Part shown: one piece after another, positions 1,183-5,598 of the stretch
Layout of the letters: each line of letters opens with the position of its first letter
Numbering within the stretch: position 1 is the first letter of the stretch
DNA from: Chloroflexota bacterium
GTDB lineage: Bacteria > Chloroflexota > Anaerolineae > J102
Length of the DNA stretch: 5,598 bases
Reading direction: 5' to 3'
Assembly (NCBI GenBank): GCA_003353825.1
Contig: PIVW01000391.1
Span: 1-5,598, forward strand
The notes under the pieces: generated by a model
Seen by the model: the letters and a program-made list of their open reading frames with translations, nothing else
What the model was told of the DNA's origin: nothing
Databases searched by the model: none
Program-made: the position numbers and the translations under genes

Positions 1183-1214
1183 AAACAGACCGTCCAGATC
1201 GGGCGGTCTGTTTT
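1183..1214 (+). terminator. Rho-independent terminator
   Basis: A 13-bp stem (1183-1195 with 1201-1213, containing one T-G wobble) encloses the 5-base loop AGATC. The run TTTT at 1211-1214 forms the 3' edge of the stem and the U-tract. It begins 29 bases after the stop codon of the upstream gene, and separates that gene from the selenoprotein gene. Confidence 0.85.
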
Positions 1215-1271: not shown

Positions 1272-1277
1272 GGAGAG
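1272..1277 (+). promoter_or_regulatory. Ribosome binding site fixing the selenoprotein start
   Basis: GGAGAG lies 9 bases before the ATG at 1287 and directly abuts the in-frame ATG at 1278. The spacing therefore favours 1287 (protein starting MSRELD) over the earlier ATG, which has no room for ribosome binding. Confidence 0.7.
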
Positions 1278-1286
1278 ATGTGCCTT

Positions 1287-1916
1287 ATGAGTCGTGAATT
1301 AGATACCCGCCAAAAAATGCGGGCCTGGCAGAAAAAGTATGACGCCGTGGCGCCCAAAGTAGGGGACGCGGCGCCAGATTTCGAGTTGTACGACACCGCT
1401 GGAGAGAATCCCGTTCGCCTCTCCGATTACCGTGGCCGGCAACCTGTAGCCCTTATCTTCGGCAGTTTTACCTGACCCCCCTATGTCAAGGGGACCGTCG
1501 GTCTCCACGATCTGTACCGGCAATATCATGAGCAGGTGCAGTTTCTCAACATCTACATTCGAGAGGCGCACCCGCTTGATGGCTGGTGGATGGGTGGTGG
1601 CATACAGGGATTGTTTTTGAAACTTTCCAGATCGAAAGCGGCAACCGATGTCTATGATCCGACCACAATCGAAGAACGCCGGGAAGTGGCAGGTCGTTGC
1701 GAAACAACCCTGCAGTACGGCATTCTCACGCTGGTGGATGACATGGATGATACCGTGAACAAAGCCTACGCGGCCCTGCCAACACGCTTATATTTGATCG
1801 ATGTCGATGGTCAGGTCGCCTATGCCGGTGGCCCAGGCCCCTTTGGATTCAAACCGGCCAAAATTGCAAAGGCGATTACAGAGTACTTGGTTCGACTACA
1901 AGCGACCATGGCGTGA
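1287..1916 (+). CDS. Deiodinase-like selenoprotein (thioredoxin fold) with in-frame UGA
   Basis: The frame gives 209 residues if the TGA at 1473-1475 is read as selenocysteine (residue 63). The N-terminal part carries the redoxin signature GDAAPDFEL (26-34) and LSDYRG, then the beta strand ALIFGSFT leading to U63-P-P-Y. Downstream, in the same frame, come the deiodinase hallmark IYIREAHPLDGW (89-100), the segment LVDDMDD (149-155) and AALPTRLYLI (162-171), which holds the cis-proline-type position. GGPGPFGF (181-188) parallels the KSGPWNY end of animal type I deiodinase. Animal enzymes have GSxTU-P at the catalytic site, so the UGA aligns with their selenocysteine. Bacteria have no thyroid hormone; a redox or peroxiredoxin-like activity, or reductive dehalogenation of another compound, is possible but unproven. 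Apart from U63 the only cysteine is C138, a candidate resolving residue. No signal peptide is seen, so it is probably cytoplasmic. Alternative: a nonsense mutation or sequencing error in a cysteine homologue (TGC or TGT to TGA). Conservation on both sides and the SECIS-like hairpin argue against decay. Confidence 0.85.
1473..1475 (+). other. In-frame UGA codon, predicted selenocysteine
   Basis: The codon follows FGSFT and precedes PPY, the position of the catalytic selenocysteine in deiodinases (cysteine in many bacterial relatives). After it the same frame stays open for 146 codons of clearly homologous protein. UGA is a real stop at 1151 and 1914, so general reassignment of UGA does not explain it. 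Confidence 0.85.
1490..1506 (+). promoter_or_regulatory. Candidate bacterial SECIS element
   Basis: A 7-bp stem (1490-1496 with 1500-1506, one G-U wobble) carries the apical loop GUC at 1497-1499. The loop G lies 22 bases after the UGA. The E. coli fdhF SECIS has its key loop GU at about 20 bases, and the general bacterial consensus asks for a G in the first two loop positions roughly 16-37 bases downstream; both points are from memory and are met. It lies inside the coding frame, encoding GTVGLH, and would bind SelB with selenocysteinyl-tRNA. A competing 5-bp hairpin (1478-1482 with 1489-1493) shares its 5' arm. Confidence 0.65.
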
Positions 1917-2002: not shown

Positions 2003-4585
2003 ATGAATATCCGTATCGAGGATGGACCTGTATCACCCCTGTTTAGACCGCTGCAACTCAAGGGCGAACAACCCTTGCCTGAGATGGCAGATGCGGCATT
2101 GCCCGATGGAATGGCCGCTGTGCGTGAAAAAGCACTCGCCGGCGAAAATGTTACTTGGGGCTTTCCTTTCGATATTGGCGGCGTCATCTCGATCTCGGAT
2201 GAGACCGTGCGGGTTGATGTTGAACCGACCAGCGCCCAATGGCTCGTTTTTATGCATACCTCCGATCTACAACCACACACATACAACGAGTCGCGTTTTA
2301 TTACACCCATGCGTGGGGAAGGGCATATGGCCGAGCACGCAGCCGACTATGTGATCGGCTACGAGGATGGCAGTGAGGTGCGGACGCCCGTGCGTCACCG
2401 GCATCAGATCGGCGGTTTTCAGCGGCGCTGGGGCGAGAACTGTGTCGAAGCGGTCGCTGTGCCCAAACCCTATCCCCTACGGGCCTCTCACGAGCAATTG
2501 CGCGAGGGCTGGGGGCGCACGCAAACACGGGTTGAGATTCCTGACCAGAGTGAATGGGTAAACTGGTTGTGGGCGTGGCAGAACCCACATCCTCGGAAAG
2601 CGATTACTTCGATCCGATTTGAACCGGTGTCCGGCCATGTCGTCATCTCTGCTGTAGCGGCCGGTGATGCCGGGGAACAACCGTTACGCTGGCGCGCGCG
2701 CCGCAAAGCCGTGCTACGGTTACCCGAGGATGTGGTGCTTCATCCCGACCTGGATGACAGCGGATTGCTGCAACAGATCCAGTTGGATATGGGCCAGGTG
2801 ATCTCAGCCACCCCCCGCTTGATCTACCCGAAAGAATCCTGGTCAGACTCCTACGCCAACGCTCTGCCACAGAAGTCCGGAGACGATGTGCTGATCGAAT
2901 ACACTGCGCATCCCGACGCTCATTTCCACCTGGTCGGCGGTCAGATCATCCCGGTCTCGAGTGTCGAATCAGAACAAGTGACATCTCCCTTGCAGGTGAC
3001 ACCCACAGCCAGGCAACGTGTGAAGATACGCACAGTGGCTAAAGAGAGTGGCAAGAGGGTGGCCACCAAGCTGCACATTCATGGAGCACATGGCGAATAT
3101 CTCGCACCTATCGACCGGCATCGCATTATCAACCCTGCCTGGTTCGAGGACTACAGTGTGGATTACGCCCACATTGCCTGGTGGGATCCCGAAACGCTGG
3201 GCGCACATTCCAGTACCTACATTTCAGGTGACACCACTATCGATGTACCACTTGGAACCCTCTACATCGAAGTGACAAAGGGCTTCGAGATGCGCCCGGT
3301 GAGACAGGTCGTTGAGGTGGCGGCGGAGACCGAGGAGATCGTCATCGAACTGGACAAGGTACTGACCTGGCGTGAGCGTGGTTGGGTAACAGCCGATACG
3401 CATGTACACTTTTTGTCGCCAACCTCTGCCTTACTGGAGGGCGCTGCTGAAGGGGTCAACGTTATCAATCTGCTGGCCAGCCAATGGGGCGAACTCATGA
3501 CTAATGTCGGGGATTTCGATGGCCGCACCACCTGGGGTTCACAGGAAGCGGGCGGTGAAGGCGAATACCTGGTGCGAGTGGGCACTGAGAACAGACAACA
3601 TGTGCTGGGCCATATCTCGTTGCTGGGCTATAACGGCTCCATGATCACGCCATTAACTACGGGGGGCGCCAATGAATCAGCCCTTGGTGATGCGGTTGAT
3701 GTCTTGCTTACGGAGTGGGCAAGAGCGTGCCGGGCGCAGGGCGGGCTGGTCGTGATCCCGCACTTCCCCGATCCCCGTCTGGAAAATGCCGCAACCCTGG
3801 TCTGTGGCGATGCCGACGCTATCGAGATGACGTCATGGGGTAATCACTACGAAGGTATCGACCCCTATTCGCTCTCCGACTGGTATCGATACCTCAATTG
3901 TGGGTATCAGGTTGCAGCTGTGGGCGGAACCGACAAGATGTCGGCAAGCATGGCGGTAGGTACGATTCGCACCTACGCGCATACAGATCCCAACGCTCCC
4001 TTCACGCACGATGCCTGGATGAACGCTGTTCGCCGTGTCGAGACCTTTGTGACTTATGGACCACTGCTGGAGTTCAGTGTGGATGGACAAGCTATGGGCA
4101 GTCGATTCGCCATGTCTGCCAGTGGAGGAACAGTCGATGTCGTATGGGAGGTTGCCAGCGTGACTCTACCGATATCGCGGGTTGAATTGATCGTCAATGG
4201 AGAAATTCGGGAGAGTGTGGCCGTTGAGTCAAATCAGAAGACAGGGCATTGGAAGGTCAGCGTAGATAGAAGTTCTTGGATGGCACTATTGGTGCGGGGT
4301 CATTATCCAGATAAAGCAGAGATCATCGGCGCTCACTCCTCAGCCATCATGATCGATGTCGAAGGTTCTCCCATGTTGGCTGCTGCCGATGCCGTCACTA
4401 TCTTGGAGCAGATCGAAGGTTCATTGGCTTATATCGACACCGTCGGCACCCGGGCGCAGGATGTCGTCTATAAGCGTATGCGCCAGGTTTTGGTATCAGC
4501 ACATCGCAGTCTGCACAATCGTATGCATGAGCAAGGCCATTATCACGAGCATACCCAATTAGCCGATCATGACGCGCATTTCTAG
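2003..4585 (+). CDS. CehA/McbA-like PHP-domain metallohydrolase
   Basis: This 860-residue protein starts at an ATG preceded by TAAGGAGA with 8 bases of spacing. The N-terminal 330 residues are unassigned and rich in beta-strand and tryptophan. Residues about 335-450 resemble the carboxypeptidase-regulatory-like beta-sandwich often found before PHP domains (KIRTV, HGAHGEYLAP). The PHP metallohydrolase core spans about 455-690: ADTHVHF (H467, H469), E483 in AAEGVNVINL, H537 in LGHISLLGY, H587 in VVIPHFPD, H615 in SWGNHYEG and D644 in GGTDK. These are the likely metal ligands, by family analogy. A beta-rich module follows (GPLLEFSVDGQ to VELIVNG), then a helical tail with an unusual histidine spacing. 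Named relatives CehA and McbA hydrolyse the carbamate carbaryl, but most members have unknown substrates, so the substrate here cannot be named. No signal peptide is visible, so a cytoplasmic location is inferred. It lies 86 bases after the selenoprotein gene on the same strand, without a convincing terminator between, so cotranscription is plausible. Confidence 0.85.
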   Translation: MNIRIEDGPVSPLFRPLQLKGEQPLPEMADAALPDGMAAVREKALAGENVTWGFPFDIGGVISISDETVRVDVEPTSAQWLVFMHTSDLQPHTYNESRFITPMRGEGHMAEHAADYVIGYEDGSEVRTPVRHRHQIGGFQRRWGENCVEAVAVPKPYPLRASHEQLREGWGRTQTRVEIPDQSEWVNWLWAWQNPHPRKAITSIRFEPVSGHVVISAVAAGDAGEQPLRWRARRKAVLRLPEDVVLHPDLDDSGLLQQIQLDMGQVISATPRLIYPKESWSDSYANALPQKSGDDVLIEYTAHPDAHFHLVGGQIIPVSSVESEQVTSPLQVTPTARQRVKIRTVAKESGKRVATKLHIHGAHGEYLAPIDRHRIINPAWFEDYSVDYAHIAWWDPETLGAHSSTYISGDTTIDVPLGTLYIEVTKGFEMRPVRQVVEVAAETEEIVIELDKVLTWRERGWVTADTHVHFLSPTSALLEGAAEGVNVINLLASQWGELMTNVGDFDGRTTWGSQEAGGEGEYLVRVGTENRQHVLGHISLLGYNGSMITPLTTGGANESALGDAVDVLLTEWARACRAQGGLVVIPHFPDPRLENAATLVCGDADAIEMTSWGNHYEGIDPYSLSDWYRYLNCGYQVAAVGGTDKMSASMAVGTIRTYAHTDPNAPFTHDAWMNAVRRVETFVTYGPLLEFSVDGQAMGSRFAMSASGGTVDVVWEVASVTLPISRVELIVNGEIRESVAVESNQKTGHWKVSVDRSSWMALLVRGHYPDKAEIIGAHSSAIMIDVEGSPMLAAADAVTILEQIEGSLAYIDTVGTRAQDVVYKRMRQVLVSAHRSLHNRMHEQGHYHEHTQLADHDAHF

Positions 4586-5002: not shown

Positions 5003-5221
5003 ATGGAGCACACACGCTGGCACATTTACGATCTTTTGAACCGCCCCAAACCCCTGTGGCTTGTAGGAATCGACCTCGAAGGAGAGGATCTGAGACATGC
5101 TGACCTCAGCCACGTCGATCTCAGCCATGCCAACCTGGCCAATGCCAGTCTCAAGGCATCGAATCTGCGGGATGCAAGGCAGTGTACCACTCCGTGGACA
5201 TACGCGACCAAAGCGAGGTAA
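5003..5221 (+). pseudogene. Pentapeptide-repeat protein, N-terminal fragment
   Basis: The ATG at 5003 has a good ribosome binding site (TAAGGAG at 4990-4996) and a promoter candidate. Residues 1-22 form a short lead (MEHTRWHIYDLL). Residues about 23-58 are pentapeptide repeats of the A(D/N)Lxx type: IDLEG, ADLSH, VDLSH, ANLAN, ASLKA and SNLRD. These stack as a right-handed quadrilateral beta-helix; family members have no single function. Homology ends at about residue 58 (near 5176), where the frame runs into unrelated ketoreductase sequence and adds a nonsense tail to the stop at 5219. A normal member would continue with many more repeats, so this is a truncated gene or the left side of a chimeric junction. 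Confidence 0.75.
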
Positions 5222-5304
5222 GCGAAGTCGTTAAGCAGGTGCGCGAGCACGGACCTATTACCGGGCTTATTCATGGGGCAGGGGTAATCGCCGACCGCCT
5301 CAAA
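5177..5304 (+). pseudogene. Polyketide-synthase ketoreductase domain fragment
   Basis: Read in the frame of position 5182, about 40 residues match the middle of a PKS ketoreductase (KR) domain: VYHSVDIRD, then VSEVVKQVREHGPITGLIHGAGVIADRL. The phrase GPITGLIHGAGV is characteristic of the modular-PKS SDR fold. Both the nucleotide-binding N-terminus and the catalytic Ser-Tyr-Asn half are absent. It has no start or ribosome binding site of its own, and after ADRL the frame passes into sequence that makes sense only on the other strand. It is therefore a detached fragment, not a gene. Confidence 0.7.
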
Positions 5305-5379
5305 ATCGGTCAGGGTCAGGGTTCCGTCAATATCAAATATCACAACTCGGGGTTTGGTGGTCACAAAGAGATACCCCAA
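5293..5379 (-). pseudogene. HAD-type phosphatase N-terminal fragment
   Basis: On the minus strand the frame reads KPRVVIFDIDGTLTLTDFEAV. The DxDGT motif I of the haloacid-dehalogenase superfamily (nucleophile Asp of FDIDGT) lies at 5320-5337. Only this first strand and motif are present; motifs II-IV are missing because the sequence changes to ketoreductase (opposite strand) at about 5293-5306. The only available start is a TTG at 5379, without convincing ribosome binding site, so the true start is uncertain. Confidence 0.6.
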
Positions 5380-5598
5380 ATCTTGAACATGAAGGCATAA
5401 TCCAGTGCCTTGTCAGGGTGTTGAGTAACTAAATAGAGTTCGGCCAGGCCATTCTGAGTTGAAGCCGCAATGCCATAATTTCTGCTTGTTAGGTTAACGT
5501 CAATGGCGTTTAAGAAAGTAGCCTCTGCTTTTTCATAATCCTTCTGCTTAAATTGTATGAACGCCTTATGCGACAAGGCGCTACCTATCCAATTAGTC
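5361..5598 (-). pseudogene. TPR-repeat protein fragment, open at window edge
   Basis: On the minus strand the frame is open from the right edge of the window. It reads a helical repeat pattern: ALSHKAFIQFKQKDYEKAEATFLNAI, then GIAASTQNGLAELYL and HPDKALDYA. The spacing and the A/G/Y positions are typical of tetratricopeptide repeats (protein-protein interaction helices). Homology appears to stop after LDYA, near 5395; the last ten or so residues before the stop at 5361 look unrelated. The piece is more AT-rich than the genes to the left, suggesting a different origin. Confidence 0.65.

Follow-up and report, generated by a model that had tools for sequence, protein, structure and literature searches.

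Does the in-frame UGA of this locus separate two small genes, or is it a selenocysteine codon within a single one, and what would such a protein do? The window, by which we mean the whole stretch of 5,598 nucleotides of a Chloroflexota contig that was analysed, contains two adjacent ORFs in the same frame, which the mechanical list made with genetic table 11 gives as 65 aa (1278-1475) and 126 aa (1536-1916). The first-pass annotation held that they are one deiodinase-like selenoprotein, which a standard gene caller would split into a short fragment and a headless C-terminal ORF. This is precisely the split found in the list. When TGA is translated as U, the frame of the gene (Table 1) has this UGA as its sole interruption. 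Residue 63 then lies in the context FGSFT-U-PPYV, followed by EAHPLDGW and ALPTRLYLI, and the second TGA of the frame is its true stop. The Pfam family T4_deiodinase (PF00837) spans the read-through (7.7e-25, 88 bits against a gathering cut-off of 27) and homologues align across the UGA, confirming that the two ORFs form one protein. Translation could also start at an ATG at 1278; the spacing of the upstream GGAGAG fits the start at 1287. The consensus scan found two terminator-like hairpins in the region against a shuffle mean of 0.7.

Table 1. Features of the deiodinase-like gene and its upstream region, in window coordinates.
Feature	Position	Strand	Remarks
Terminator-like hairpin and T tail	1195..1210	+	Between upstream ORF and gene; consensus scan only
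GGAGAG, Shine-Dalgarno-like	1272..1277	+	9 nt 5' of ATG 1287; direct reading of the sequence
Deiodinase-like gene, most likely of a selenoprotein	1287..1916	+	209 residues with TGA as U; real stop TGA 1914-1916; PF00837 at residues 14-195
In-frame UGA, almost certainly Sec63	1473..1475	+	TGA 200, TGC 14, TGT 2, frameshift 1 among 217 aligned loci
Bacterial SECIS hairpin (predicted), GGGGACC-GUC-GGUCUCC	1490..1506	+	Loop 25-27 nt, U of UGA = 1
YIREAH (Tyr90, Glu93, His95), deiodinase active-site anchor	1554..1571	+	= Dio3 Tyr197, Glu200, His202
Cys138 codon, candidate resolving cysteine	1698..1700	+	Helix after active site (3' of EAH loop)

Among the 120 database matches listed, 105 are only 126-160 aa long, and the eight of these that were inspected are C-terminal pieces; the match with the highest identity (P0014, 96%) is itself a 126-aa headless ORF. 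The 15 full-length homologues among the same matches (P0002-P0013, P0015-P0017) all print W at the Sec position, probably as a result of reading TGA by table 4. Together, the misprinted W and the split gene calls hide a selenoprotein family in protein databases. Each kind of entry also agrees with another account of the locus. The short ones, like the two ORFs of the list, are compatible with a nonsense mutation or a faulty assembly, or else with two proteins and a restart at GTG 1536. The printed W is compatible with a deviant code, such as table 4, in which UGA stands for tryptophan. Both accounts can be weighed against the codons that relatives carry at residue 63.

We searched one genome per species with the seeds IYIREAHP and [AT]YA[AG]xPTRLY, which gave 128 relatives, of which the best 80 were kept. 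Residue 63 is covered by the alignment in 79 of these best 80, with TGA in 77, TGC in one and a frameshift in one (L061, where TGA at residue 63 is followed by a one-base frameshift). An earlier set, restricted to sequences in which an EAH-like motif follows a U or Cys at residue 63, contained 190 proteins (178 TGA, 11 TGC, 1 TGT); 18 of 216 sequences yielded none, six of them being SelB or tRNA-Sec loci. Since the motif requirement would bias the counts, we recounted the codons by tblastn with X at residue 63, so that the alignment and not the motif fixes the place. Of 218 loci, 217 align (Table 1); they are a census of search results and not a random sample, some genes having been fetched twice and eight CxU loci having been sought for that very feature. 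All sense codons encode cysteine (16/16, L061 left out) and there is no TGG. A homologue with neither Cys nor Sec at this place, which had been named in advance as speaking against selenocysteine, was not found among these loci: 216 of 217 carry TGA or a Cys codon and the remaining one is L061, frameshifted just after its TGA.

The window gene itself terminates with TGA, as do 33 of 73 relatives, a few of whose frames (e.g. L015) may be broken, and the upstream 383-aa ORF of the window. The use of TGA as a true stop in the gene and in these relatives rules out a code in which TGA means tryptophan, to which we give practically no chance in spite of the printed W. As for a mutation, an assembly error or two proteins, these are at odds with a TGA common to 200 of 217 relatives from many phyla. 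They are also at odds with the stretch between TGA and restart. In 65 sequences, codons 64-83, which lie 5' of any restart codon, vary most at third positions, although in codons 75-83 two thirds of the pairwise codon differences alter the residue. This stretch is also conserved at the protein level, and we consider an interrupted gene or a pair of proteins very improbable.

If the UGA encodes selenocysteine, a SECIS element should follow it. Folding of the window sequence by itself gave no convincing structure after the UGA (z from -0.7 to 0.2), and Rfam showed no match at the gathering score; the hairpin becomes visible only by comparison across relatives. In the window its stem has seven pairs (1490-1496 with 1500-1506) and begins 17 nt after the U of the UGA. 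Counting this U as 1, positions 19-23 pair with 29-33 around a five-base loop in the relatives. In 62 distinct relatives 97.1% of the cells of this five-pair stem are paired, against 25.8-56.8% when the stem is slid by one to three bases, its columns having been picked after inspection of these same sequences. Cells with double changes number 21, against 5.3 in shuffles, and RNAalifold recovers the same stem unaided. Because the stretch is coding, we used a synonymous control in which codons are drawn by each gene's own usage. All five pairs are present in 53 of the 62 sequences and four in the other nine, with 1.25 full stems expected; eight loci in another register (L066, L067, L069, L070, L073, L074, L078, L080) had been set aside beforehand, and with them the count is 53 of 70. 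The window stem has a chance of 0.01 under such shuffles. Total folding energy separates weakly from the same control (mean z -1.1; p of 0.05 or below in 30% of 70), as does a second folding measure (31% of 100). Under a permissive rule all 100 Sec genes examined have a hairpin, at a mean weight of 14.7 as against 8.2 after synonymous shuffling; of 9 Cys genes 4 have one, with a mean weight of 4.4 (3.2 in shuffles). The SECIS described for bacterial deiodinase-like genes is a hairpin directly 3' of the UGA that carries a G in a small apical loop (PMC1088965), as does the one seen here.

The position of the stem is not the same everywhere. It lies a few bases earlier in L066, L070 and L078, and many Planctomycetota have a GGUC loop; in both forms the stem follows the UGA closely. 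With the amino-acid frame as reference, the stem occupies two registers, one in L066, L070, L073 and L078 and the other in L001-L065, the distance from the U to the loop being about 21-23 or 24-28 nt. From these two registers, the SECIS element seems to have slid during evolution.

The genomes of the relatives were also searched for the machinery that decodes selenocysteine. Among the genomes of 50 of the best 80 loci, 44 have SelB above its cut-off and 42 a tRNA-Sec scoring at least 60 bits. The 60-bit line is our own; Rfam's 47 bits would let through 5 of 14 control genomes, as against 2 for SelB. At least one of the two is present in 46 of the 49 UGA genomes; the three that lack both comprise two of 1.2-1.3 Mb and one of 7 Mb. 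G047, the single Cys genome of the 50, has neither. A larger comparison comes from 343 genomes of Planctomycetota, with SelB taken at E <= 1e-60 and TGA copies identified by their in-frame stop count. Of the genomes that have a TGA copy, 71 of 79 contain SelB, compared with 3 of 8 that have Cys copies only and 136 of 252 that lack the gene (TGA versus Cys only p 0.0015, TGA versus no gene p 1.7e-9; Fisher tests, which ignore kinship). Four genomes with partial matches, all of which have SelB, were left out, and one of the eight Cys-only genomes, G625, has a weak match (1e-20) with an odd motif. Among Anaerolineae SelB is present in 8 of 10 genomes with the gene, which is uninformative since 160 of 199 have SelB anyway. 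Verrucomicrobiota show a strong match in only 2 of 240 genomes, one with Cys and one with TGA. Some Planctomycetota have three to six family matches, namely G544 (L110, L157, L179, L203, L209), G632 and G644, of which some are pieces of one gene.

The identification of the UGA as selenocysteine has thus held up: TGA occurs in 200 of 217 loci and Cys codons in 16, a covarying hairpin follows, and the TGA form is associated with SelB. A tryptophan code would leave the hairpin and the SelB association without reason. Comparison of the relatives makes it almost certain that the UGA is decoded as Sec63.

What kind of protein is this? The proposed kinship with deiodinases is backed by the PF00837 match over most of the protein, by the alignment of the read-through protein with Dio3 and by a predicted structure (pLDDT 91.9) whose best solved matches are Dio2 and Dio3. 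The N-terminus of the 209-residue protein is hydrophilic by eye and no membrane anchor was seen in it; the protein is most likely a soluble, thioredoxin-fold, deiodinase-like selenoprotein. In the alignment with Dio3 many active-site positions are kept: Ser167 (Ser60 here), Thr169 (Thr62), Sec170 (Sec63), Pro171-172 (Pro64-65), Tyr197 (Tyr90), Glu200 (Glu93), His202 (His95), Trp207 (Trp100), Arg225 (Arg131) and Arg260 (Arg167). Most are also nearly invariant in the family, since among 217 aligned loci Ser60 is found in 206, Thr62 in 213, Tyr90 and Glu93 in 215 each, His95 in 216, Arg131 in 210 and Arg167 in 207, together with Asp151 in 215 and Pro165 in 214; Trp100 is present in 83 of 100 Sec proteins. 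Other Dio3 residues are replaced, i.e. Cys168 by Phe61, Asp211 by Gly104, His219 by Pro125, Tyr257 by Leu164, Phe258 by Pro165 and Arg275 by Pro183. The thyronine-binding Arg275 and Tyr257 are among them, and their places are variable among relatives: Arg occupies that of Arg275 in 13 of 100 relatives with Sec and in 7 of 11 with Cys. The cysteine of the animal CxU motif is replaced by Phe61, two residues before Sec; in DIO1 this cysteine, Cys124, serves the thiol recycling of Sec (PMC9141512). Roles for the residues of the deiodinase active site, including a proposed proton relay to the dehalogenated carbon, are given in PMC7506546 and PMC9141512. By its residues, the inner catalytic network is of the deiodinase type, and most of the residues that hold thyronine are absent, as is the DIO1 reduction cysteine.

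Which thiol, then, might reduce Sec63? We found a candidate in the helix that follows the active site. A cysteine within two alignment columns of residue 138 is present in 172 of 192 distinct Sec proteins, and none of the 11 CxU proteins has it, against 172 of the 181 others. The motif-based set gave the same picture, with Cys138 in 168 of 178 Sec proteins and in none of the three CxU proteins there. We then looked for new CxU proteins in 397 genomes, in the class of G050, with the DNA pattern FGSCT-UGA-PP(F/Y) and near variants, ignoring the helix. Nine genomes matched, one of them already known, as against one match for the reversed control, and all eight new proteins lack the helix cysteine. 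Most of the eleven CxU proteins form one clade, and the tree has four changes to CxU, each paired with absence of the helix cysteine. Branch support is good for just one of these pairs, and with four independent pairs a sign test is unable to reach significance. Neither thiol is present in 9 of the 192 distinct Sec proteins (7 of 178 in the motif-based set, two of those seven having UxxC). UxxC itself occurs, among the 178 Sec proteins, in the related L208, L210 and L211, the last two without a cysteine near the helix site and L208 with one. Hence, the nine proteins with neither helix cysteine nor CxU, and L208 with both UxxC and a cysteine near the helix site, indicate that a second thiol is not indispensable and that one site for it need not exclude another. 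Two Sec proteins without the helix cysteine, L193 and L203, have a cysteine directly after ER at the start of the helix (+58), near a Dio2 cysteine in the alignment. Dio3 differs in having its Cys239 about eight residues beyond the position of Cys138 in the corresponding helix, and a simulation of Dio3 found this helix rigid and Cys239 too distant to resolve Sec (PMC7506546).

The case for Cys138 as the resolving thiol, based on its absence from the CxU proteins, is good but not conclusive. We found no report of the helix cysteine or of its swap in the open-licence literature (PMC12013277 does not mention deiodinases at all), and as far as that literature was searched the helix cysteine and its absence alongside CxU are new. 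One might speculate further that the bacterial family is a two-centre class with a movable second thiol, in which a helix cysteine is the rule and is dropped by lineages that gain CxU. The deiodinases of animals would accordingly represent a single late form of a bacterial selenoreductase that at first served something other than hormone chemistry, a view that we think somewhat less likely than not and offer as a possibility.

These elements can be assembled into a mechanism that we think somewhat probable, i.e. that a small oxidised or halogenated compound is reduced by Sec63, which a thiol reductant then regenerates through a Sec63-Cys138 bond. Sec63 would attack a soft substrate, either an organic peroxide or hydrogen peroxide or a carbon-halogen bond, while Ser60, Thr62, Tyr90, Glu93 and His95 would hold the substrate in position and relay a proton. 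Once oxidised, Sec63 would be resolved by Cys138 of the next helix, and a cellular thiol system would then reduce the resulting Sec-Cys bond. In rare lineages the second thiol would instead stand beside Sec, as CxU (the animal DIO1 arrangement) or UxxC. How the Sec of deiodinases is re-reduced is itself debated (PMC9141512, PMC7506546). The pattern of residues argues against thyroid hormone as the substrate, which we regard as unlikely, and for a thiol-recycled Sec. The best reading, from the sequence comparisons, is that of a reductase of selenoperoxidase or dehalogenase type. Dehalogenation and a peroxide/thiol redox role were the two functions suggested in the first-pass annotation.

The protein might more narrowly be a reductive dehalogenase proper, acting as animal deiodinases do on a halogenated natural product or pollutant, with Sec taking the halogen as a selenenyl halide. 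The active site is in line with this: Ser60, Thr62, Tyr90, Glu93, His95, Arg131 and Arg167 are kept in 206 to 216 of the 217 loci, and they include residues proposed for the proton relay to the dehalogenated carbon (PMC7506546, PMC9141512). Chloroflexota are also common among the relatives. Yet, the relatives span many phyla, the Dio3 thyronine residues Arg275, Tyr257, Asp211 and His219 are not kept, the Arg at the place of Arg275 being a minority feature of Sec relatives as counted above, and the neighbours that Pfam could name (15 proteins at six loci and in the window) are not halogen-related. We therefore consider a dedicated dehalogenase unlikely, though not negligibly so, and prefer the broader reading of a thiol-recycled selenoreductase.

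The gene seems to stand alone, with a terminator-like hairpin before it and no widely recurring neighbour in relatives: among 396 neighbours of 74 genes no family is common to more than six loci. Some local associations were seen. In five Chloroflexota loci (L006, L011, L025, L044, L077) the gene has, no more than about 1.1 kb away, a neighbour from a single BLAST cluster, which Pfam identifies as GrdB-like (PF07355) in three loci tested. In a clade of six (L021, L026, L031, L035, L036, L064) the gene is closely 3' of a phosphofructokinase gene, with hypA next in four, an apparent operon whose families were named by Pfam in L021 only. Upstream in the window, 2-1153 encodes the C-terminal portion of a longer protein, which matches DUF7901 (2.9e-41) and, weakly, GEVED. 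Downstream, 2003-4585 encodes an 860-aa metallohydrolase of the CehA/McbA type (NF038032, 8e-39), to which 2816 of the candidates scored are related at E <= 1e-20; the five organism-labelled entries among its 120 matches listed are Anaerolineae, Anaerolineaceae or Chloroflexota, at 65-67% identity, which makes an uncultured member of the Anaerolineae the most likely source. Between 5003 and 5400 a piece of a ketoreductase/short-chain dehydrogenase (5182-5400, PF08659 2.6e-5) and a pentapeptide-repeat ORF (5003-5221) overlap in different frames, and this stretch is apparently gene debris, decayed or recombined.

Deiodinases control thyroid hormone. A large bacterial family that shares their inner active site but lacks the residues for hormone binding, and whose resolving thiol seemingly swaps position, offers, in its soluble enzymes, direct tests of deiodinase chemistry, of Sec recycling and of the origin of these enzymes. 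How does the window protein compare with systems already described? Peroxiredoxins have the active-site motif PxxxTxxC. The window protein has Leu56 and Ser60 at the places of the required Pro and Thr, and it differs from the peroxiredoxins and ResA-type thioredoxins (AhpE, Bcp, ResA) in lacking CxxC and in having the EAH loop of deiodinases. The NCBIfam model for deiodinase family proteins, NF038285, matches residues 22-198 (9.8e-58, 196.2 bits), which is below its curated 250-bit cut-off, so that the protein falls outside the equivalog, and only the second half of the 347-long model is matched. Relative to animal DIO1-3 (PDB 4tr3, 9h48), the protein has Phe for Cys two before Sec, a hydrophilic N-terminus without a visible membrane anchor, and a bacterial SECIS inside the frame.

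The closest known systems are bacterial. The first-pass annotation stated that deiodinase-like selenoproteins had been reported from marine metagenomes, and this is borne out: Sec and Cys forms were described from the Sargasso Sea in 2005 (PMC1088965) and again from the GOS metagenomes in 2008 (PMC2398784). The family has thus been in print since 2005 and the window gene is a further member. Reviews of 2022 and 2026 list its motif as UxxC (PMC9312934, PMC13188914), whereas the window protein has UPPY. We do not treat UxxC as defining, because the 2008 GOS table gives no motif (PMC2398784). A redox role was suggested for the Sargasso Sea forms because thyroid hormone is not expected there (PMC1088965). 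Compared with the family as tabled, the window protein thus stands apart by UPPY in place of UxxC, by a second cysteine in the next helix and by its Chloroflexota host, and it shares with the Sargasso Sea and GOS selenoproteins the PF00837 domain, Sec or Cys at the catalytic place, the bacterial SECIS and the proposed redox role.
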